DNA of 51,943 nt from Ignavibacteriales bacterium. GTDB lineage: Bacteria > Bacteroidota > Ignavibacteria > UBA10030. Shown here one piece after another: positions 28,261 to 42,892 of the stretch (position 1 is its first letter; each line of letters opens with the position of its first letter). A program made the translations under genes and the position numbers. The stretch is taken from contig JACPSI010000157.1 of the NCBI GenBank assembly GCA_016193365.1, positions 1 to 51,943 on the forward strand. Reading direction: 5' to 3'. A model generated the notes under the pieces. It saw only the letters and a list, made by a program, of their open reading frames with translations. It was not told where the DNA came from and searched no databases.

Positions 28261-28979
28261 TGGCACTTAAGAAATGGATAAATAATTTGGTGGGACTCTC
28301 GGGTTACCAGATCGCCAGGAGGCCTTCAGTGGCTCGGGACATTGCGCGTGGAAAATACAGCTGGCTTCAAGAAATGGACATCGCAACAGTTTTGGACATA
28401 GGCGCAAACACCGGAGCGTTTGCTGAAATGATGCGTCAAATTCTCCCGCAGGCCATGATTTACTCCTTCGAGCCCCTGGAATCATGCTATAAGCAGTTGA
28501 TTTCGAAAGCACCCGTTCTGAGACCAATGCAATGCTTTCAGTTTGCGCTGGGCCAAGAACATGCTATAAAGACAATGTATCGCAATGATTACTCTCCCAG
28601 TTCTTCCCTTCTACCGATGGGAAAACGAGTTCATGAGGCTTTTCCCTTTACGCGACATGCAGTTGAAGAACAGATCGTGGTGCGTTCATTGGACGAGGTC
28701 GCCGGCGAGTTATTTTTGAAGAAGCCCATACTTCTAAAAGCAGACGTCCAAGGTTACGAACTGAATGTTCTGACAGGAGCGGAAAAGACCCTGCCCATGA
28801 TTGACATACTCATTCTCGAGACGAGTTTCGTGGAGCTATATGTGGGACAACCTTTGTTTGATGAGGTGTATCAATTCTTGCATGACCGACGATTCTCTTA
28901 TAGCGGGAGCCTTGGACAGATACTTGATCCATCTAAAGGGGTCATACTTCAGGAGGATTCAATTTTTGTACGCAGATGA
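28257..28979 (+). CDS. FkbM-family methyltransferase
   Basis: VLDIGANTGAFAEMMRQILP, IYSFEPLESCYKQL, LLKADVQGYELNVLTGAEKTL. Confidence 0.85.
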   Translation: MMALKKWINNLVGLSGYQIARRPSVARDIARGKYSWLQEMDIATVLDIGANTGAFAEMMRQILPQAMIYSFEPLESCYKQLISKAPVLRPMQCFQFALGQEHAIKTMYRNDYSPSSSLLPMGKRVHEAFPFTRHAVEEQIVVRSLDEVAGELFLKKPILLKADVQGYELNVLTGAEKTLPMIDILILETSFVELYVGQPLFDEVYQFLHDRRFSYSGSLGQILDPSKGVILQEDSIFVRR

Positions 28980-29119
28980 AAAGAGAAGGAATGAAATCGA
29001 AAAGCGTCTATGCCGCAAAAATAATGATTAGGATGTACCTGTTACGTAACTGGCGGGGGAAAAAGCCAGATGTGGAATCAGCCGATGTACGTCAGCCCCC
29101 AAGTGAACGCACTACATGA
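28976..29119 (+). CDS. Candidate small ORF (47 aa), ATGA-overlapping both neighbours
   Basis: MKREGMKSKSVYAAKIMIRMYLLRNWRGKKPDVESADVRQPPSERTT*; start overlaps the FkbM stop (ATGA 28976-28979), stop overlaps the next ATG (ATGA 29116-29119). Below the ORF-track length cutoff. Confidence 0.35.
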   Translation: MKREGMKSKSVYAAKIMIRMYLLRNWRGKKPDVESADVRQPPSERTT

Positions 29120-29864: not shown

Positions 29865-29939
29865 ATGAGTTTATCGTTGAGCGAGAAAAAGTATGCCTTG
29901 GTCAAGGGGCCGAAATTGCCGGTCTTTGACGTGCAATGA
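29865..29939 (+). CDS. Candidate micro-ORF (24 aa), ATGA-overlapping the downstream GT2
   Basis: MSLSLSEKKYALVKGPKLPVFDVQ*; TGA at 29937-29939 overlaps ATG at 29936. Confidence 0.25.
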   Translation: MSLSLSEKKYALVKGPKLPVFDVQ

Positions 29940-30718
29940 GAATCTCCATCATAACACCTTCGTTGAATCAAGGAAAGTTTATCGAGGAAACGATTCGCTC
30001 TGTCATGAATCAAAATCATGACGACGTTGAGCACATTGTGATGGATGGGGAGTCAACCGACAACACTGTGTCGATTTTGGAGCGATATTCCCACCTCAAA
30101 TGGGTTCGTGAGAAGGATTCCGGCCAGTCCAATGCAATCAACAAGGGTTTTCGAAGCGCTACGGGCGAAATTTTGGGTTGGCTCAATTCGGACGACTATT
30201 ATGAAAAGAACATCTTCGCAGATATTGTCCGCTACTTCCAAAGTCGCCCCGATTGCATGATGTTATACGGTGATATTAGTTTTGTCAACTCAAAAGGTGA
30301 ATTGATTACGAAAATCACTGGTGACACGATCAATCACGCGAGGCTGATACAATGTCCTGATGTCGTCCGTCAACCGAGTTTCTTTTGGAGACGGACACTC
30401 ATGGACCAGGTCGGGATGCTAGACGAAACTCTACATCTTGTCATGGATTTCGATTTCTTTTTGAGGATCTCGAAGCATCATCATTTTCATTACCTACCTA
30501 AAAACTTCAGCTATTATCGACTCTATGATCAAAACAAAAGTGTCTCTCTCGGACGTCGTCAAGTGCTGGAGATGTATATGGTATACAGAAAGAACAAGAT
30601 CAGCTTCACACCAGCAATCGCCCTGTTTTTGGTGAAGAAATTGATGCGGACGTTTGCGCCGATGAATGGCCTTATCGACTTTCTTCGGAAACAGCGACGA
30701 CATAACGCTCCGTCGTGA
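29936..30718 (+). CDS. Glycosyltransferase family 2
   Basis: RISIITPSLNQGKFIEETIRSVMNQ, HIVMDGESTDNTVSIL, GWLNSDDYYEKN. Confidence 0.92.
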   Translation: MRISIITPSLNQGKFIEETIRSVMNQNHDDVEHIVMDGESTDNTVSILERYSHLKWVREKDSGQSNAINKGFRSATGEILGWLNSDDYYEKNIFADIVRYFQSRPDCMMLYGDISFVNSKGELITKITGDTINHARLIQCPDVVRQPSFFWRRTLMDQVGMLDETLHLVMDFDFFLRISKHHHFHYLPKNFSYYRLYDQNKSVSLGRRQVLEMYMVYRKNKISFTPAIALFLVKKLMRTFAPMNGLIDFLRKQRRHNAPS

Positions 30719-31938
30719 AAAAAAGAATACTGTTTGTCGACGAAGATCAGCAACGGAATGGTTCGACCGTGAGTTTGGAATACCTCGTGAAGGGATTTCA
30801 CTCCCGAGGTTATGATACTTTTGTATTGACGTGGAAGAAAGACCCAGGGGCGAAATCGGTTTTGAAGCAATCGGCGACGCTGATAGATGGAACGCGCTGG
30901 GGACTGCCTTCGATAACCCTGCATGTCCATTTTGTCTACGACATACCCGTTCTTTCTTGGAGTGGCCTCAAATCCGTCACGTTTGATAGTTTGAAGTTCT
31001 TTCTCGGAATTATGATCGTTTTCAAAACGATAAGAGAAACTCAACCTGATGTTGTGTACATCAACGAATATTCTGTTGTTCAAGCTTCTATCGCCTCGTG
31101 GCTGTCGGGGAAGCCGTCTGTGGCCCATATCAGAAGTCAACTTCTCAATGGAACATTCGGGATTCGGCGGTTTCTGCTCTCTCGTCTCATGTTAACAACC
31201 AACAAAGCAATATTCGCGATCACGGAGCGTGAGGCAAATCAGCTGCATTGGCCTGTCAATCAACAACATAGAATTCATGTCGTGGGGGAATTCTTTTCAC
31301 ACACTGGATTGACCGTCCATGATTCAAAAAAATGTAAAGAGGCTTTTGGATTGCCATTGGACAGGAGTATCATCACAATGCTTGGGGGCATCAAAGATAT
31401 CAAAGGGACAATCGATTTCTTGAGGGCAGCCGAGATCGTCGTCTCCAAGAATGATCGGGTGGTTTTTGTCATCGCAGGTTCTGACTACAAAGATGGAAAT
31501 TCAGGCAGACGGGCATACTTTCACGAGTGCATGAGGATTGTGGACTCGCTTAAAAAGAAAGGATCAGTTCGCATGTTAGGTGCTATTGGCAATTCGCTGG
31601 ACCTCATTCTTGCCTCGGATATTGTGGTTTCTCCCTCCCCACGAACGCATTTTTCCAGGCCGGTCATCGAAGCATGGGGGCTTGGAAAGCCCGTAATCGC
31701 GACAAGAACGGATCATATGCAGGATCTCGTCACGCAAGGTACAGATGCATTTCTCGTGGACGCTGGAGATCATGATTCTCTTGCAAGCTGCCTTTCTACC
31801 CTTTTGGTGGATGAGCAACTACGGGACAGACTAGGTGTTGCGGGCAAGAGCAGGGTGGCTGAGGAATTTGACGCCGACAAAAATATCCAGAGAATAGTCG
31901 ACATATGTGATTCTTTGGTGAGTCAGAAAAATGGGTAA
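30715..31938 (+). CDS. Glycosyltransferase family 4 (GT-B)
   Basis: DEDQQRNGSTVSLEYLVKGF; VVSPSPRTHFSRPVIEAWGLGKPVIATRTDHMQDLV. Confidence 0.85.
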   Translation: MKKRILFVDEDQQRNGSTVSLEYLVKGFHSRGYDTFVLTWKKDPGAKSVLKQSATLIDGTRWGLPSITLHVHFVYDIPVLSWSGLKSVTFDSLKFFLGIMIVFKTIRETQPDVVYINEYSVVQASIASWLSGKPSVAHIRSQLLNGTFGIRRFLLSRLMLTTNKAIFAITEREANQLHWPVNQQHRIHVVGEFFSHTGLTVHDSKKCKEAFGLPLDRSIITMLGGIKDIKGTIDFLRAAEIVVSKNDRVVFVIAGSDYKDGNSGRRAYFHECMRIVDSLKKKGSVRMLGAIGNSLDLILASDIVVSPSPRTHFSRPVIEAWGLGKPVIATRTDHMQDLVTQGTDAFLVDAGDHDSLASCLSTLLVDEQLRDRLGVAGKSRVAEEFDADKNIQRIVDICDSLVSQKNG

Positions 31939-32860
31939 CACTGTATTGACGACCCCGAAAATTGTTGCTGTAGTTCTTAACTACAAGCGCCCACAGGAAA
32001 CTGTGGAATGCGTTCGATCGCTGGTAGAATCGACATACGAGGGCGTGGAAATTGTCGTGGTGGACAATGCCTCTTCAGACGGCTCCGCAGAACTCATCCG
32101 AGGTCTCTACCATCGTGTGACAGTTGTGCAAGCAGAAAAAAATCTCGGATATGCCGGTGGTATGAACTTGGGTATACGACGGGCGTTACAATTATCTGCG
32201 ACTTATATCCTGATCATCAATAGCGATACTTTTGTGAAGAAAGACGCGTTAAAGCTTCTTGTTCAGGAATTAGGGGAAAGGCCGAATGCAGGAGCCGCAA
32301 GTGGAACGTTCCTGTACTATCCAGAGACAAATAAGGTGTGGTACGCAGGAGGAAAGTTGATGTACTGGCAGGCCCACGCGCAGACAAAACGCACATTTCC
32401 CGACAACTGGTTAAGCGGTACATGTAAAACTGAGGAAGTATCCTTTCTCTCAGGCTGTGCTATTGTTTTTCGCGCACAATCACTGTTAGAGGTTGGCCTG
32501 TTCGACGAACGTTATTTCATGTACTTGGAAGATGTGGATTTGTCTGCTCGTTTTGCTGCAAAAGGGCTCGATTTGTTGTACGTTCCGGAGGCAGTATTCT
32601 ACCACAGACTGTTTCAGGATGTTGATGAGCCTTTAAAAGTGTACTTTAGTATGAGGAACCGACTTTTATTCCTTAACGCCCAAAGGATCCTTGACCGCAT
32701 TGTGGGGGCGGTTTATTTTTCATTGATGTTAGCGACCAAAGTAACTCTTTGGAGTTTGACGAGGTCCGATCTGAGGCGAGCAGCACTGCTGGGAGTCACA
32801 GATTTTTTCAAGGGACGCTACTACGAAGGTCGAGGGTTGATCTTCATTGCCAAAAAGTGA
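31931..32860 (+). CDS. Glycosyltransferase family 2 (rhamnosyltransferase-like)
   Basis: VAVVLNYKRPQETVECVRSL, VVVDNASSDGSAELIR, NLGYAGGMNLGIR, LFDERYFMYLEDVDLSAR. Confidence 0.92.
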   Translation: MGNTVLTTPKIVAVVLNYKRPQETVECVRSLVESTYEGVEIVVVDNASSDGSAELIRGLYHRVTVVQAEKNLGYAGGMNLGIRRALQLSATYILIINSDTFVKKDALKLLVQELGERPNAGAASGTFLYYPETNKVWYAGGKLMYWQAHAQTKRTFPDNWLSGTCKTEEVSFLSGCAIVFRAQSLLEVGLFDERYFMYLEDVDLSARFAAKGLDLLYVPEAVFYHRLFQDVDEPLKVYFSMRNRLLFLNAQRILDRIVGAVYFSLMLATKVTLWSLTRSDLRRAALLGVTDFFKGRYYEGRGLIFIAKK

Positions 32861-32902
32861 TGGGTAAGAATACACGTTTGGGTTTTACAATTGGTGGAAC
32901 GG

Positions 32903-34045
32903 ATGCGTATTGGTATTGATGCCCGTGGTGCTATGAAGGTCACTGACGGAGTGGGCCGCTACGCGATCGAGTTGCTGCGAGCTTTTTCGAAAAGGGATGA
33001 CGACAATCAATACTTTGTCCTCAAAAATCCGCAGACAAATTTCTCTTTTGAATATGACCATCGGTTTCACGAACTGTCCGTCTCCCTGAATCGATTCAGT
33101 ATAGAAGAACAATTGTTCTTGCCGGGAATACTCTCGAGGCTAAAGCTTGACCTCTTTCACTCGCTGCATGCCACTCTTCCGCTTGCGCACAAAGGCGCAA
33201 AAATTGTAACCGTTCATGATATCTTTCCTATCTTTCTACCTTGGAGTTTCGGTGGAGGCACGGTGAGAAACAAATTCACAGCGGTTTCCTTCTCTGCTTT
33301 ATTACGTCTCTGTTTGAAGAAGGCCACTCTGGTCATCGCCGATTCTGTGCATACGGCCAGAGACTTGAGCGCCCATCTTGACCTTGATCCTGGTCGAGTA
33401 AGGCAGATTTACCCCGGCACTGATCACCTATTTCCATCAAAGAAGCCCAGCCCCAAGTCAAGCGATTCTCCTGAGATTCACGCAATATCCAAACCGTACC
33501 TGATTACGGTGACGAACTTTAGACCTCACAAAAATATGGACAAGATTTTAGAGGCATTTAGATTGATAAGGTCAAGAATACCCTCTTTTACTCTGGTGGT
33601 CATTGGAGACGACCCCAAGGGACGTGCTTCGCGGCTCGGATCACTTGAAGAATTTGAAGCTCAAAAAGTACGTCTCCTCGGGTTCGTGAGTGATGGAATG
33701 CTTGCAAATCTGTTGGAGTCCTCTGAAGCTTTTTTGTTTCCTTCCCTGTATGAAGGCTTTGGTTTCCCAATCCTCGAAGCAATGGCGAGGGGGACCCCGG
33801 TTATTACCTCTGCTATTGCTTCTTTGCCGGAGGTGGCAGCAGACGCGGCGGTCTACGTAGACCCCAACAACGCTGAGGCTATTGCACAGGCTGTCATGAA
33901 CCTCCATACAAACAAGAAATTGAAGAAAGATCTTCAGGATCGAGGTCGGCGACAGGCAAAGAAGTTTCAATGGCAAAATACCGCGGAAAAAACGCTCCGG
34001 GTGTACGATGAAGCAATCGGGCGTTCTTCCAGTTTGCACATATGA
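32903..34045 (+). CDS. Glycosyltransferase family 4
   Basis: MRIGIDARGAMKVTDGVGRYAIELLRA; LFPSLYEGFGFPILEAMARGTPVITSAIASLPEVAADAAVYVDP. Confidence 0.93.
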   Translation: MRIGIDARGAMKVTDGVGRYAIELLRAFSKRDDDNQYFVLKNPQTNFSFEYDHRFHELSVSLNRFSIEEQLFLPGILSRLKLDLFHSLHATLPLAHKGAKIVTVHDIFPIFLPWSFGGGTVRNKFTAVSFSALLRLCLKKATLVIADSVHTARDLSAHLDLDPGRVRQIYPGTDHLFPSKKPSPKSSDSPEIHAISKPYLITVTNFRPHKNMDKILEAFRLIRSRIPSFTLVVIGDDPKGRASRLGSLEEFEAQKVRLLGFVSDGMLANLLESSEAFLFPSLYEGFGFPILEAMARGTPVITSAIASLPEVAADAAVYVDPNNAEAIAQAVMNLHTNKKLKKDLQDRGRRQAKKFQWQNTAEKTLRVYDEAIGRSSSLHI

Positions 34046-35178
34046 AAATTGTTCAAACGAATAAAGCGTATTTTCCCGTCATTGGTGGGATGGAGACTGT
34101 CGTCACGACATTGTCCGAAGGCCTCTACAATAAGGATGGCGTTTCCGTTGAAGTACTGACGTGCAATGATAGGCGATCGTTAAGATTCTTAAGGCGAAAC
34201 GTCAACGACGTTCCAGTAACGTTTGTGCCCACGTGGGGTAACATTGCTTCTTTACCTATTAGTCCCGCATACTTTGGTACCCTAGCCAAGCTCGATGGAG
34301 ACATACTCCACATTCATGAGCCATTCCCATTGGCAGACCTCTCGATGGTTTTCTTACGGAATATCCGGAGGAATTTCTCGCGCATCGTTGTTTCGTGGCA
34401 TAGCGACATCATTCGTCAGAAATGGGCTTTGGCGCTCTATTCTCCGGTCATTCACAAGCTACTTGAATTGGCTGATTGTATTCTGGTTGCCAGCGCAAAA
34501 AACATTGAGAGTTCGCGCTTCCTGCAAAGCTACAAGGAAAAATGCGAGGTCATACCATTCGGTCTTGAGCTGGCTTGGGCCAAGAATTCAGCCGGTCGAG
34601 CGGAAAAGGTGAACGCCATTAGAAAAGAACATGGAGTTCCCCTGCTTTTATTTGTCGGAAGGTTGGTTTATTACAAAGGCCTGAAGTATCTTGTTGATGC
34701 TCTTCATATGCTCCCAGAAGCGCGGCTAATCATCATTGGATCTGGTCCTCTTCTTGGCGACATTCGGAAACAGATTGCTAGGCTCAATCTGAACGCGAGA
34801 ATCGTGATGATTCCGCATTTACCTCGAAATGAGCTTCAAGCATATTACGACGCATGCGATGTGTTCGTACTTCCATCGACGGAAGTAAGCGAGGCATTTG
34901 GGCTTGTGCAAATTGAAGCTATGGCATGCGGCAAACCTGTTGTTTCCACGAACCTCGGAACGGGCGTGACGTTTGTTAACAAGGATGGCATTACTGGTTT
35001 GACTGTGGAGCCTCGGGATTCGAAGAGGTTGTGCGAGGCCCTGAGAAAGCTCATAACCAACAAGGGTTTGAGGACACGCCTTGGTCAGAATGCCCAAAAG
35101 CGCGCCTTTGAAGAGTTCTCTGCAAGGAAAATGGTCGACAGAACTTATAAGCTCTATCAACGCCTTTTGACCCAATGA
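34042..35178 (+). CDS. Glycosyltransferase family 4
   Basis: VIGGMETVVTTLSEGL, LLFVGRLVYYKGLKYLVDAL, FVLPSTEVSEAFGLVQIEAMACGKPVVSTNLGTG. Confidence 0.93.
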   Translation: MKIVQTNKAYFPVIGGMETVVTTLSEGLYNKDGVSVEVLTCNDRRSLRFLRRNVNDVPVTFVPTWGNIASLPISPAYFGTLAKLDGDILHIHEPFPLADLSMVFLRNIRRNFSRIVVSWHSDIIRQKWALALYSPVIHKLLELADCILVASAKNIESSRFLQSYKEKCEVIPFGLELAWAKNSAGRAEKVNAIRKEHGVPLLLFVGRLVYYKGLKYLVDALHMLPEARLIIIGSGPLLGDIRKQIARLNLNARIVMIPHLPRNELQAYYDACDVFVLPSTEVSEAFGLVQIEAMACGKPVVSTNLGTGVTFVNKDGITGLTVEPRDSKRLCEALRKLITNKGLRTRLGQNAQKRAFEEFSARKMVDRTYKLYQRLLTQ

Positions 35179-35224: not shown

Positions 35225-36540
35225 TTGCATGAGCGTCTGATGAGAAAAAGAAGCGAATTGATGGTCACCCTCGCTATAGACTTCGTTATGGTCAACTTGG
35301 CCTTCGTCTTCTATTACTGGATTAGGGTAAAAAGTGGATGGTTTCAATATTCCATCGAGCCGGAATTTATCCTTCCGATGTTCGCTGTTTATTTCTACTG
35401 GTTGCTTTGCTATGCGTTTTTTGCGCTGTATCGCTCTTGGTATGCTCAATCCAGGCTCGACGAACTGTTAACCTTATTCAGGACGACCGTCCTCGGTGCT
35501 CTCGTGTTATTCTTTCTCATATTCATTGACGACTCGGCAAACGATTCACGCGCGAATTCGAGATTACTCATTTTTGTTTACTGGAGTATGGTCTTTTCAC
35601 TAGTTGCAGTTCGGAGATTGACTGTCCGAGCAATCCCAAAACGATTACTTATTGCCGGAATCGGTGCCCGTAACACGCTTATTGTGGGTTGGGCCCAAAA
35701 GGCATTTCAGTTATGCGATAGGTTCTCAAGTATCCCGCCCTCGGTTATAAAATAGTAGGATTTGTCAAAGCAACCAGAAGGGCGGAGGGTCCAAAGGGTA
35801 CCAACTACAAGAATCTTCCGGTTTTGGGGAGGGATATGCACTCACTGGTTTCCCGAAAATTTCTCAATGGAGACCATAAGGTTGTTTTCATCCCTAATTG
35901 GGCTGACCTGCAGGAGATCGCTCCTTCAAGCAGAAGGAAAAATTCTCTGCTCCGGGAACTTGAAATCGGAGACAAATTTGTGATTCAATACTTGGGGAAT
36001 ATGGGGAGAACTCATGGAATCGAACATCTTTTTGAATATGTCAATCAATTATCGGGTCAGGCGCGTATTCATTTCCTATTTATTGGCTCTGGAGCAAAGA
36101 AGCAATGGCTTGAAGACGCGGCAAAGAAAGCAGGTCTTCGGAATATCTCAATACTGCCTTATAGATCACGAGCTGAACATGCCATGGTCAATAATGCATG
36201 CGATCTGGCCATCATTTCGATGTTGCCCGGGATGTCGGGGGTTTCAGCGCCGAGTCGGTTGTACAACATAATGGCGGCAGGTAAACCAGTGCTCGTCGTT
36301 GCAGAAGATAGCTCTGAACTTGCAAAGGTAGTGTTCGAAGAGTCTATCGGATGGGTTGTCGAGCCAGGTAATACTCAGGAACTCGTGGCGAAAATTCTGA
36401 AGGCCGCGAAGCATCCGAAACTTTTGCGTAAAATGGGAATGCGCGCGCGCGCGGGCCGCAGCCGAAGAAAAATACTCGTTTCAGAAATCCCTTTCGCTGT
36501 ACAGCAGGTTACTGACCTCGTGAAACAGTGCGAACGATGA
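35225..36540 (+). pseudogene. Chimeric, frameshifted gene: N-terminal ~200 aa of an undecaprenyl-phosphate sugar phosphotransferase joined to the C-terminal domain of a WbuB-like GT4
   Basis: 35225-~35828 parallels the intact paralog at 36575; after ...YKNLPVLG the sequence becomes RDMHSLVSRKF...VVFIPNWADL...IQYLGNMGRTHGIEHLFEYVNQL (GT4). Frame breaks near 35720 and in 36441-36453. Confidence 0.85.
36441..36453 (+). repeat. (GC)6G dinucleotide tract at a frameshift point
   Basis: gcgcgcgcgcgcg; adding one GC unit restores ...RARARAAAEEKYSFQKSLSLYSRLLTS*. Confidence 0.9.
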
Positions 36541-36574: not shown

Positions 36575-37984
36575 ATGAAAAAGAATTCCGAGAGTATTGT
36601 CGTCTTCGCGGTTGATTTTGTCACCATCAACCTTGCCTACTTTATCTACTACTGGGTTCGCGTCCGAAGCGGCTGGGTTTCTTTTCCGATTGAGCCTGAG
36701 CTATGGCTGCCAATGCTGGCTCTTTACGGTTATTGGCTTTTGTGGTTCCTGTTTTTCGGCCTGTACCGCTCTTGGTACGCCCAATCGAGAATCGACGAAA
36801 TCCTCATCCTTTTTCGTACAACAGCAATCGGCGTTCTCGTGTTATTCTTTCTTATTTTTGTCGATGACACTACAACAGAAACACGCGCAAATTCCAGGCT
36901 CCTTATTTTTGTCTACTGGCTCCTGACATTTGGAACAGTGGCAGCCGGCAGGCTGGGAGTACGGGCGATCCAAAAGCGTTTAATCATAGCCGGCGTCGGT
37001 GCGCGAAATACATTGATCGTTGGGTGGTCGGACAAAGCCTTTCAGCTCTGCGATATGGTGCTCAAATACCCCGCGCTAGGTTATAAGATGGTTGGCTTTG
37101 TAAGGGCGGCAAAAAAAGGCGAGGGTCCCAAAGTGAATCAATACAAGAATCTTCCGGTGCTGGGAGGCGTTCAGGAAATCCCATCTCTTTTGGATAAACA
37201 CAATGTGCAGGAAGTCCTCATAGGGCTCGATTCTACAGAACACCCGCAGCTGCTCGACGTGATGAAGTTTTGCAACGGACGCGACGTCGGAATGAAAATT
37301 GTTCCCGACCTCTACGACATTGTCAGCGGCCAGGCGCGGCTCAGCTCGATCTATGGTTTTCCGCTCATGGAGCTTCGCCCTCAGTTGCTGATGCCGTGGG
37401 AAGCCGCCATGAAGCGTCTCGTGGATGCTGTCGTTGCGCTGGCGATCATTCTCGTCGGTATCCCTCTCTGGCTCATTATTGTCCTTGCCATCAAGCTGGA
37501 TTCACGGGGGCCGATTTTCTACAAACAGGAGCGCGTAGGCCGCAACGGCGATCCTTTTAACATTCTGAAATTCCGCTCCATGTTCACGGACGCCGAGAAG
37601 AAAACAGGCCCGGTCTGGGCGGATAAAAATGACCCAAGAATTACGCGTCTGGGCAGGATCCTTCGCCGGTTTCATCTCGATGAGGTTCCACAGTTTCTCA
37701 ACGTCCTGATTGGCGACATGAGCCTGGTAGGCCCGCGCCCGGAACGGCCATACTTTGTCAACCGTCTGTCAAAAGAAATTCCGCTCTACCGGCATCGACA
37801 TCGCGTCCGGCCGGGGATTACGGGATGGGCTCAGATCAAATACAAGTACGACCAATCGATTGAAGACGTGAAATCGAAATTGAAATACGACCTGTTTTAC
37901 ATTGAAAACATGTCGTGGCGGCTGGATTTGAAAATTATGCTTAACACTCTTTATGTTGCATTGACCGGCAAGGGACGCGTTTGA
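36575..37984 (+). CDS. Undecaprenyl-phosphate glucose/galactose phosphotransferase (polyprenyl glycosylphosphotransferase, WcaJ-like)
   Basis: N-terminal TM bundle, CoA-binding-like middle, GPIFYKQERVGRNGDPFNILKFRSMFTDAE...DPRITRLGRILRRFHLDEVPQFLNVLIGDMSLVGPRPERP. Confidence 0.95.
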   Translation: MKKNSESIVVFAVDFVTINLAYFIYYWVRVRSGWVSFPIEPELWLPMLALYGYWLLWFLFFGLYRSWYAQSRIDEILILFRTTAIGVLVLFFLIFVDDTTTETRANSRLLIFVYWLLTFGTVAAGRLGVRAIQKRLIIAGVGARNTLIVGWSDKAFQLCDMVLKYPALGYKMVGFVRAAKKGEGPKVNQYKNLPVLGGVQEIPSLLDKHNVQEVLIGLDSTEHPQLLDVMKFCNGRDVGMKIVPDLYDIVSGQARLSSIYGFPLMELRPQLLMPWEAAMKRLVDAVVALAIILVGIPLWLIIVLAIKLDSRGPIFYKQERVGRNGDPFNILKFRSMFTDAEKKTGPVWADKNDPRITRLGRILRRFHLDEVPQFLNVLIGDMSLVGPRPERPYFVNRLSKEIPLYRHRHRVRPGITGWAQIKYKYDQSIEDVKSKLKYDLFYIENMSWRLDLKIMLNTLYVALTGKGRV

Positions 37985-38076: not shown

Positions 38077-39180
38077 ATGAACCTTCACATGGTTGACCTC
38101 GTCGGTCAGTACAAAACAATCAAACCGGAAATCGATGAGGCGATTCATAGGGTCCTTGACTCCGGGCATTTTATTCTTGGCAAGGATGTCAAGGACTTTG
38201 AGGCGGAGGTAGCTTCATATCTTGGCGTAGCCCATACGGTCGGTTGCGCTTCGGGCACTGATGCTCTGCAAATCGCCATGATGGCGTTGGGTATTGGGGC
38301 CGGCGACGAAGTGATCACGACTCCGTTCACGTTTGTTGCTACGGCGGAAACAATCGCCCTCCTTGGCGCGAAACCCGTCTATGTTGATATTGACCCGAAA
38401 ACGTTCAACATCGACCACTCTCAAATTGTAAAAGCGATTACCAAGAAAACCAGGGCAATTATTCCAGTTCATCTGTACGGCCAGTCGTGCGATATGGATC
38501 CAATCATGGAGATTTCACGAAAACACAACCTGCCCGTCATCGAAGATAATGCCCAAGCAATCGGCGCCGAGTATAACGGACGGAAGCTCGGGGGCATTGG
38601 AATGTTGGGCTGCATCAGTTATTTCCCAAGCAAGAATCTTGGCGCTTATGGCGATGCCGGAATGGTGGTCACCAACGACAGCGCTCTTGCTGAAAAAGTC
38701 CGAATGATCATCGTTCACGGATCGAAAGTGAAATACAAGCACGAGATCCTTGGCGTCAACAGCAGGCTCGATACCCTCCAGGCCGCGATACTGAGAATAA
38801 AGCTGAAATACCTTGACAGGTGGATACACGCGCGGAAAGAAGCTGCCGCTCGCTACAACAAGCTGTTCGCCGGAACGAACGTCATTACACCGTTTGAAGC
38901 CTCATACGGCAGGCATGTCTTTCATCAATACACAATTCGATTGAAGAACCGAAATGCTGTAGAAAAACATCTCGCTGAGAAGAAAGTACCGCACGCCGTG
39001 TATTACCCGATCCCTCTGCACCTGCAACAGGCATTTCGAACTTCTGAAGCGGTAGAAGGTTCATTCCCATTAGCCGAACAGGCCGCGCAGGAAGTACTTT
39101 CACTTCCCATGCACACGGAGCTGACAGAGGAACAACAGTCGTACATTGCAGCCTGCGTTCTCGAGGCAACTCGCCGATGA
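38077..39180 (+). CDS. DegT/DnrJ/EryC1/StrS aminotransferase
   Basis: GCASGTDALQIAMMALGIGAGDEVITTPFTFVATAE, IEDNAQAIGAEYNGRKLGGIGMLGCISYFPSKNLGAYGDAGMV. Confidence 0.95.
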   Translation: MNLHMVDLVGQYKTIKPEIDEAIHRVLDSGHFILGKDVKDFEAEVASYLGVAHTVGCASGTDALQIAMMALGIGAGDEVITTPFTFVATAETIALLGAKPVYVDIDPKTFNIDHSQIVKAITKKTRAIIPVHLYGQSCDMDPIMEISRKHNLPVIEDNAQAIGAEYNGRKLGGIGMLGCISYFPSKNLGAYGDAGMVVTNDSALAEKVRMIIVHGSKVKYKHEILGVNSRLDTLQAAILRIKLKYLDRWIHARKEAAARYNKLFAGTNVITPFEASYGRHVFHQYTIRLKNRNAVEKHLAEKKVPHAVYYPIPLHLQQAFRTSEAVEGSFPLAEQAAQEVLSLPMHTELTEEQQSYIAACVLEATRR

Positions 39181-39911
39181 CAAATTCCAGCAACCACAAG
39201 CTTTCTCTTATCGTTATTCCCACGTACAACGAGGCGGAAAATGTTCCCGCCCTCGTGCCACGGATCCTCGATCAAGATAAGACGTTTCACGTTCTTATTG
39301 TCGATGATAATTCGCCGGACGGCACCGCGAAGCTTGTGAAAACCATGCAGAAGAAGCACAAGCGGATTCACCTCATCGAGCGCGGCCAGAAAATGGGACT
39401 CGGCACAGCTTACGTAACAGGTTTCAAATACGCCCTGAAAAACAGTTTTGATTTCATTTTTGAGATGGATGCTGATTTTTCCCATAATCCTAAAGCGCTT
39501 CTCGATCTGAGGAAAAAGGCTGATGAATGCGACCTTGTCATAGGTTCAAGGTACGTGTCCGGCGTGAATGTGGTCAACTGGCCGATGAGGAGGCTCATTC
39601 TCAGCTATGGTGCGAACGTCTATACGCGCATCATCACCGGTATGCCGGTGAAAGACGCCACAAGCGGTTTTAAATGTTACCGACGCTATGTCCTCGAAAG
39701 TCTTGACTTGGATTCACTCAAGTCAGAAGGCTACTCGTTTCAGATCGAAACGAATTTTTTGGCCTGGAAAAAAGGGTTCCGTGTATGTGAAGTTCCCATA
39801 GTTTTTGTTGACAGAAGGGTAGGAGTCTCAAAGATGTCCAGGAAGATCGTCTATGAGGCAGCCTGGCAAGTGTGGCGACTAAAACTACAGAGTCTGTTTA
39901 ATGGCAAATAA
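39177..39911 (+). CDS. Polyprenol monophosphomannose synthase-like GT2
   Basis: VIPTYNEAENVPALVPRIL, IVDDNSPDGTAKLV, FEMDADFSHNPKAL, DATSGFKCYRR. Confidence 0.92.
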   Translation: MTNSSNHKLSLIVIPTYNEAENVPALVPRILDQDKTFHVLIVDDNSPDGTAKLVKTMQKKHKRIHLIERGQKMGLGTAYVTGFKYALKNSFDFIFEMDADFSHNPKALLDLRKKADECDLVIGSRYVSGVNVVNWPMRRLILSYGANVYTRIITGMPVKDATSGFKCYRRYVLESLDLDSLKSEGYSFQIETNFLAWKKGFRVCEVPIVFVDRRVGVSKMSRKIVYEAAWQVWRLKLQSLFNGK

Positions 39912-41925
39912 AAGCGGTCGGCTCCAGCTTTCTATTATAGTGGTGAATTACAACGTCCGCGATTTTTTGCACCACGCTCTGCATTCTCTACAAAAGGCGA
40001 CAAAGGGGATTTCGTCGGAAATCATCGTCGTGGATAACGCTTCCGATGACGGCAGTGCGGAAATGGTTCGAAAGAGATTTCCCGGCGTCCAGCTCATCGT
40101 CAACAAACACAATCTGGGGTTTGCAAAAGCGAATAATATCGGACTCGAGAGCGCGCGCGGAAAGCTGTTGCTCTTGATAAATCCGGACACCGTTGTCCAG
40201 GAAGACACTCTCCGCGTCATGATGAGGTTCTTTGATGAGTATCCGGATGCGGGGTTGGCTGGATGTAAAATTCTGAACCCTGACGGGAGCTTTCAGCTCT
40301 CTTGCCGCAGGAGCTTTCCAACGCCCTGGGTGGCATTGACGAAGATATCGGGTTTAAGTAAGGTTTTTCCAAGGTCGAGCTGGTTCGGGAAGTACAACCT
40401 GACGTATCTCAATGCAGATGAAACGTACGAGGTAGATGCCGTGAGCGGTTCGTTCATGATGCTGCGCCGGGACGTCTATCAACACGTAGGGGGGCTTGAT
40501 GAGGCTTTTTTCATGTACGGAGAAGACCTTGACTGGTGTTACCGGATTCAAAAGGCGGGGCGGAAGATTTTCTACGTACACACCACACAGATCATTCATT
40601 ACAAGGGTGAAAGCACGAAACGCAGCGCCCTCGATGAAATCCGGACGTTCTACGAAGCCATGCACTTGTTTGTACGGAAGCACTATGCAAAACGTTTTCC
40701 GCTTGCACTACTCGTTCGGCTCGGCATTGGTTTCACAAGCATTGGGGCGAACGTTCGTTCGTTGTTGAGGCCCCTAAAGTTTGCAGTCGTTGATTTCCTC
40801 ATCGTTGACATAAGTCTTCTTCTTGCCGAGTACCTATGGCGCGGAGGCGTGTTTCTGTATCCCGGTTACGCGTACCCCATCGTCTTTGTGGTTCCTGCGG
40901 TCATCGTTGTGGGAAGTCTCTATGCCGCGGGAGTTTATACACACAGGAATATGTCTGTCTCACGGTCGTTGGCTGCCGTCGCGGGAAGCTTTGTCGTGAT
41001 TGCCTCTCTCACCGCCTTTTTCAAGGAGTATGCCTTCAGTCGAATGGTCATGGTGATTTCCGGGTTTCTGAGTGTGCTGTTCATCTCGGGCTGGAGAGTC
41101 TCACTGAAACTCTCAGGCCGCGTGGCGACCACGGGCAGGAAAAGTCTTCTGGGAAAGCGAACGCTGATTGTCGGGGCGGATAATTCGGCCAGAGAGTTGT
41201 TAAAGAAGCTGCGTGTGCGGGCGGGCGAGGGATACGACATCGTAGGGTTTCTCGACCGCACGCGTCGGCACGTAGGTGAATCCATCGACGGGATCGCTAT
41301 TGTCGGCAGTATCGAGAATGCGGGCAAGGTGATCAGGGAATTCCGCGTTAGCGACGTTATTTTCTCGACCAATGCGCTCTCCTATGCCGAGATCCTGTCT
41401 GTGATCAGCAGGATTCGCGAACAGGCAGTGAATTTTCATCTTGTCCCCACAACGCTTGAGGTCATCATCGGCAAAGCAAGCGTTGATACGCTGGAGGATA
41501 TCCCGCTTGTGCAAATCTCATATAATATTGAACAGCCATTTCACAAATTTCTTAAAAGGCTTTTTGACCTCACGGTTTCTACGTTGCTCTTCATCTGGGT
41601 TTATCCTATCTTACGTTTAAGAAAGCTCTTATCACCCGGCATTCGCTCGAATTTCGTCTTGTCCATTCCTTCAGTTCTCAAAGGGGAAAAAAGCCTCGTG
41701 GGTCCTCCGGAAGGTTTCCATACACACATTGCACGCAACGGAGAATCCGGGACACCCGTGAATCTTGGAAAGCCCGGTTTGACAGGCCTCGTCCAGCTTC
41801 AGGGAAGCCGCTCGTTATCTTCAGATGAAGCCGAGCAATACAATCTATACTACGCGCGCAACCAATCGGTTTTACTTGATCTCGAGATTCTGATCAAGAC
41901 GTGGCTCCAGCATAGAATGAATTGA
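39901..41925 (+). CDS. Fusion: N-terminal GT2 + TM/CoA-binding + degenerate polyprenyl glycosylphosphotransferase C-terminus
   Basis: GT2: [43 protein letters not shown]-term: [19 protein letters not shown]...[87 protein letters not shown]. Confidence 0.88.
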
Positions 41926-41941
41926 GAGTCGAGGTCAGTCA

Positions 41942-42892
41942 ATGGCAAAGGTCATGCTGGATTTTGAGAAACCTATTCTGGAACTTGAACAAAAAATCGA
42001 GGAAATGCGGAAATATGCGGATAACCTGGACATTGCCGATGAAATCCAGACACTCGAGAAGAAAGTAGATCAGCTGAGACAAAGCGTTTACACGGACCTT
42101 ACGCGGTGGCAGCGAGTTCAGCTGGCGAGGCACCCCGACCGGCCTTACACGCTGGATTACATCGAGATGATGATTGAGGATTTTGTTGAGCTCCACGGAG
42201 ATCGGGGGCACAGCGATGACAAAGCCATTGTGGGCGGCTTTGGCAGGCTGGGAAAAGAAACAGTATTGATCGTCGGTCATCAGAAAGGGCGGGACACGAA
42301 ATCCAACCTCTACCGCAACTTCGGCATGCCCAACCCGGAAGGCTATCGGAAGGCTCTTCGCATGTTCCATCTCGCTGTGAAATTCAACAAGCCTATTATC
42401 ACACTGTTGGATACGCCCGGCGCTTATCCCGGACTCGAAGCCGAGGAGCGGGGCCAGGCGGAAGCGATTGCGCGCAATTTGTTTGAGATGTCGCATTTGC
42501 CCGTGCCCATTATCGTCGTGATCATCGGCGAGGGTGCATCGGGAGGGGCGCTTGGCATCGGCGTGGGAGACAGAATTCTGATGTTCGAGAATTCCTGGTA
42601 TTCTGTTATCGCGCCGGAGTCGTGCTCGAGCATCCTCTGGCGGAGCTGGGATTACAAAGAGCAGGCGGCGGAAGCATTAAAGCTCACGGCGAGCGACCTT
42701 GTCGAACAGGGAATCGTGGATAGAATCGTGCCCGAGCCACTCGGAGGAGCGCACCGCAACGCTCAGGAAGTCGCGAATACGCTCAAGGAAATTCTCCTGG
42801 AGGAATTAAAGGCATTGAAAAAGATGAAACCCGGGGCGCTTGTTGAAAAACGGATCAAAAAGTTTGCGGATATGGGAGCGTGGAAAGAGTGA
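41942..42892 (+). CDS. accA: Acetyl-CoA carboxylase carboxyltransferase subunit alpha
   Basis: [75 protein letters not shown]. Confidence 0.97.

Follow-up and report, generated by a model that had tools for sequence, protein, structure and literature searches.

A probable recombination scar joining parts of an initiating sugar transferase and a GT4 glycosyltransferase in a polysaccharide locus of an Ignavibacteriales bacterium

The window, the whole stretch of DNA analyzed here (51,943 nucleotides), is one entire contig of a 3.16-Mb, 97%-complete assembly that comes in 167 contigs. The gene set surrounding the chimeric frame that is our subject is, to judge from its families (Table 1), a Wzx/Wzy-type polysaccharide locus. 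The intact PGT-B, a polyprenyl-phosphate sugar-phosphotransferase, is a full member (451.9 bits against TIGR03025, cut-off 295.55) of the EPS_sugtrans / WcaJ-type polyisoprenyl-phosphate hexose-1-phosphate transferases (TIGR03025, PF02397), and its family suggests that chain initiation would fall to it. It is 82% identical to its counterpart in G001, a relative of the same genus; the corresponding values for the DegT, GT2, GT2-PGT and AccA genes that follow are 82, 91, 82 and 97%. The other conserved genes examined in the window have full-length open frames. Between the two FkbM methyltransferase genes lies a short gap (28976-29119) that holds only a 47-aa frame.

In this bacterial family the variable glycosyltransferases usually come first, then the PGT, then the conserved genes. 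Nearly all relatives examined have DegT, GT2, GT2-PGT and AccA in the same order after the PGT, and the genes before it vary; even the genus's two members differ in them. The GT2-PGT gene at 39901-41925 combines a GT2 domain with a PGT-like part that has CoA_binding_3 and, of Bac_transf, no more than the C-terminal part (profile positions 96-175 of 179); its PGT domain is possibly degenerate. Relatives have it at the corresponding position, so that this fusion, unlike the chimera described below, is a genuine and conserved one. G001 has an extra stretch between PGT and DegT (L081 4600-5230, contig C143), resembling, by eye, a fragment of a DUF559-type endonuclease; the corresponding place in the window lacks it.

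Table 1. The chimera and its surroundings; positions are those of the window
Feature	Position	Strand	Basis
Poly_export/SLBB	22436		family profile match
GNVR/Wzz-like	24137		family profile match
Wzy_C	25329		family profile match
Polysacc_synt flippase	26710		family profile match
FkbM methyltransferases (n=2)	28257, 29116		family profile match
Variable glycosyltransferase block (GT2, GT4, GT2, GT4, GT4), upstream of the scar	29936..35178	+	gene content differs among relatives
PGT-A, first frame: N-terminal 160 codons, with the membrane part and the beginning of CoA_binding_3	35240..35719	+	similarity to PGT-B; TIGR03025
First frame break (approximate)	35720..35722	+	one base fewer than PGT-B (nucleotide alignment)
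PGT-A, second frame, up to YKNLPVLG	35722..35832	+	nucleotide/protein alignment with PGT-B
Junction in GTT TTG GGG (V-L-G)	35821..35829	+	motif common to PGT (PVLG) and GT4 (IVLGRDM)
C-terminal domain of WcaI/WbuB-like GT4	35824..36453	+	PF00534; NF007640
Second frame break (GC dinucleotide run, palindromic GCGCGC tract)	36441..36456	+	GT4 family C-terminus in another frame
PGT-B, intact polyprenyl-phosphate sugar-phosphotransferase	36575..37984	+	PF02397 1.3e-69, PF13727 3e-17
Conserved downstream block: DegT aminotransferase, GT2, GT2-PGT, AccA	38077..42892	+	families and order in relatives

At 35225-36540 an earlier note had placed a chimeric gene in which the N-terminus of a sugar-phosphate transferase is joined to the C-terminus of a GT4 glycosyltransferase. 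The hybrid is indeed there, with unmistakable matches on either side (E=6e-71 for PGT-A against PGT-B; E=4e-18 for PF00534), but its span has to be redrawn at both ends: homology puts the start at the ATG at 35240 and not at the TTG at 35225, and the stop at 36540 is merely that of a shifted frame.

The front half (35240-35832) covers ~198 codons from the N-terminus of another polyprenyl-phosphate sugar-phosphotransferase, PGT-A, whose protein sequence is 68.5% identical to that of PGT-B (68% over the 160 aa of the first frame); the description of this half as a diverged paralog of the downstream gene over some 200 codons is thereby borne out. TIGR03025 matches it at positions 2-146 (3.5e-15), that is, with the N-terminal part of the profile only, and PF13727 partially and just below its cut-off (5.7e-5). 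The chimera accordingly has the N-terminal membrane / CoA_binding_3 part of a TIGR03025-type transferase. What separates PGT-A from the transferases of that group is the missing catalytic domain: a profile search located the C-terminal Bac_transf domain (PF02397) in PGT-B only, and neither in 35240-35755 nor in 35824-36453. A 17-nt stretch identical in PGT-A and PGT-B, considered as a mark of recombination, was rejected; an 18-nt one (TCTCGTGTTATTCTTTCT) lies elsewhere in the alignment.

The back half is the C-terminal domain of a GT4 of the WcaI/WbuB-like kind (NF007640, PF00534). PF00534 (Glycos_transf_1) scores 65.9 bits against a cut-off of 26.4 (E=4.2e-18); the WcaI family, NF007640, is the best-scoring named family (3.2e-34, profile positions 182-384 of 411), yet stays under its cut-off because only half of the protein is present. 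The half is 54% identical to the full-length GT4 of a relative, and a search among solved structures returned no sequence match for it. The C-terminal, donor-sugar domain is thus present and well conserved, while the N-terminal GT-B domain that WcaI/WbuB-like enzymes possess is gone; "WbuB" is here a label of likeness only.

Where precisely are the two halves joined? The earlier placement near 35821-35832 holds: the joint falls within GTT TTG GGG, and an independent repeat search has the similarity between PGT-A and PGT-B ending at 35828. PGT-B and the PGT of G001 have PVLG at this point; most GT4 relatives have V-L-G-R-D-M, with (I/V)VLG before RDM; and in the window GTT TTG GGG leads into LGRDMHSLV..., the GT4 C-terminal domain. 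Because V-L-G belongs to both parents, the joint can be placed no more finely. The microhomology available to a recombination event, as estimated from the motifs of both families, would amount to at most about 9 nt.

The frame of the chimera is broken twice, as had also been claimed: just after 35719 and in the GC run at about 36441-36455. Past the first break the original frame runs to a stop at 35755, and a PGT-B-like frame picks up as VLKYPALGYKIVGFVKATRRAEGPKGTNYKNLPVLG; beyond the second, the ending proper to the GT4 family (AAEEKYSFQKSLSLYSRLLTS) continues in another frame to its stop at 36521-36523. Random sequencing error does not readily account for two breaks within a single 1.3-kb stretch when the other conserved genes examined are fully open; with conserved genes around the chimera intact, the two breaks look like real decay. 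In alignments with relatives, PGT-A violates 3 of 49 conserved columns and the GT4 half none of 28 (the row of G029 being left out of the GT4 count, since its PGT had been taken in place of its GT4), from which it follows that constraint was lost recently.

That most of the conserved residues are kept in both halves is the one observation that might speak for a functional product, either a hybrid protein or a short membrane protein from 35240-35755. This is hardly credible: the frame is broken twice, neither the catalytic domain of the PGT nor the N-terminal domain of the GT4 is present, and the fusion occurs in none of the relatives searched. The suggestion that a hybrid enzyme would be encoded if the breaks were sequencing errors also fails, because even an open frame would have no known catalytic arrangement: PF02397 is missing from its PGT part, and of the two domains that a GT-B enzyme requires the GT4 part is without the first. 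A working hybrid enzyme is very unlikely; equally far-fetched is a product still made and active, be it the truncated membrane half (35240-35755) or small amounts of a frameshifted hybrid, serving for example as a membrane anchor that positions the glycosyltransferases of the locus. Most likely the scar itself does nothing.

Comparison with relatives indicates which of the pieces is surplus. A GT4 like that of the chimera stands directly upstream of the PGT in G012, G004, G029 and G017 (the front of the last being cut by a contig end), so that the separate, full-length GT4 before a PGT that the earlier note had proposed to look for exists. A GT4 3' part with PGT-B after it thus conforms to the usual order, which leaves PGT-A as the extra piece. 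The fusion itself was not found: in relatives the best matches to the GT4 and to the PGT each occupy a full-length frame of their own, a few of them cut short, and a conserved single family of fused proteins, which would have told against a chimera, was not seen among the relatives searched.

The missing halves are also absent from the rest of the assembled genome, consistent with the proposal that a deletion or recombination removed the transferase catalytic domain together with the GT4 N-terminal domain. With full-length PGT-B as query, the whole-genome search of this 97%-complete assembly yielded PGT-A, PGT-B, a single distant PGT (37%) from a different contig and some weaker matches, with no C-terminal half of PGT-A among them; with the N-terminal half of a homologous GT4 as query it yielded nothing (as a positive control, 4 of 5 relatives were matched). 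These results bear on an artefact of assembly, in which two separate genes of one population would have been misjoined at ~35830 and the frame breaks would be errors. The fragmentation of the assembly into its 167 contigs lends this some color, but it is decidedly improbable: at the joint the two parent genes are identical over a short stretch only, far under the word lengths normal for assemblers; the missing halves are on no contig; and a GT4 3' part leading on to PGT-B agrees with the natural order in relatives.

The finding of partial gene copies in a broken frame, at a place where relatives have an unbroken arrangement, instead makes it highly probable that the chimera is a pseudogene, a scar left where illegitimate recombination or a deletion struck the locus at the right-hand margin of its variable part.

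Where did the second transferase come from? The PGT is single-copy in all 27 other genomes of the family that have a match. In a class-level sample of 245 genomes, 194 of them with a match, only this genome, G104 and G232 show two (in G232 they sit on separate contigs, and their frames of about 465 codons are open), and this genome alone among the matches listed has a partial copy adjacent to the complete one. In a phylogenetic tree PGT-A groups with PGT-B and G001 (91/92) and falls outside the pair PGT-B+G001 (90/86), a weakly supported placement: AU tests reject neither PGT-A with PGT-B alone (p=0.18) nor PGT-A with G001 alone (p=0.21). A pairing of PGT-A with G011 was rejected (p 0.0006). 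Since the alternative pairings within the PGT-A/PGT-B/G001 trio are not rejected, the tree does not separate import from an old duplication. The GC3 of PGT-A (0.52) resembles that of the variable block (0.49-0.54) and not that of PGT-B (0.60 as a whole, 0.56 over the matching stretch), which counts for import, the difference being small.

PGT-A might alternatively be a tandem duplicate, copied before the split from G001 and since diverged, with a later deletion between PGT-A and the GT4 leaving the fusion and G001 losing the extra copy. This is doubtful, if far from fanciful: the nearest relatives of PGT-A are PGT-B and G001, its exact place in that group being unsettled, but a second copy is present in no other genome of the family, an extra loss in G001 has to be supposed, and the lower GC3 of PGT-A, small as the difference is, suits the variable block. 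The most economical reading, and the most likely one, is that PGT-A was imported from a sister lineage together with variable genes.

If so, the order of events may have been the following: 1) Another variable block, with a PGT of its own at the end (the genes up to 34042-35178 plus PGT-A), would have been placed upstream, import from a sister lineage being the likeliest route. 2) A single exchange or deletion at the few V-L-G codons common to both genes would have fused PGT-A to the resident GT4, and the same event would have removed the catalytic half of PGT-A, the N-terminal half of the GT4 and anything between them. 3) The two frameshifts would have come after the fusion.

Events of this type are ordinary for sugar-coat clusters, and the scar adds one more example to a known kind. 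In the O-antigen clusters of Salmonella, remnants of wzy and of an H-repeat bear witness to earlier recombination and deletion, and group D2 joins two clusters (PMC3715488); there, as in the chimera, gene remnants and joins record such events, but the Salmonella remnants are of wzy and insertion elements, whereas here an initiating transferase is fused in place to a GT4 and no insertion element is seen. An account of the meningococcal capsule island (PMC5349592) describes a truncated galE2 alongside it, intact and truncated copies flanking a horizontally acquired locus. An intact gene plus a truncated copy at a polysaccharide locus is what is found here as well; the meningococcal remnant lies in a duplicated flanking region, while the truncated copy in the window sits within the locus, fused to a different gene.

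One practical consequence is for annotation: 35225-36540 should not be named a bifunctional enzyme. The initiating transferase forms the boundary between the constant and the variable blocks of the locus, and the scar shows a break at precisely that boundary. One can think of it as a clean fossil of change in a surface-polysaccharide locus of uncultured bacteria.
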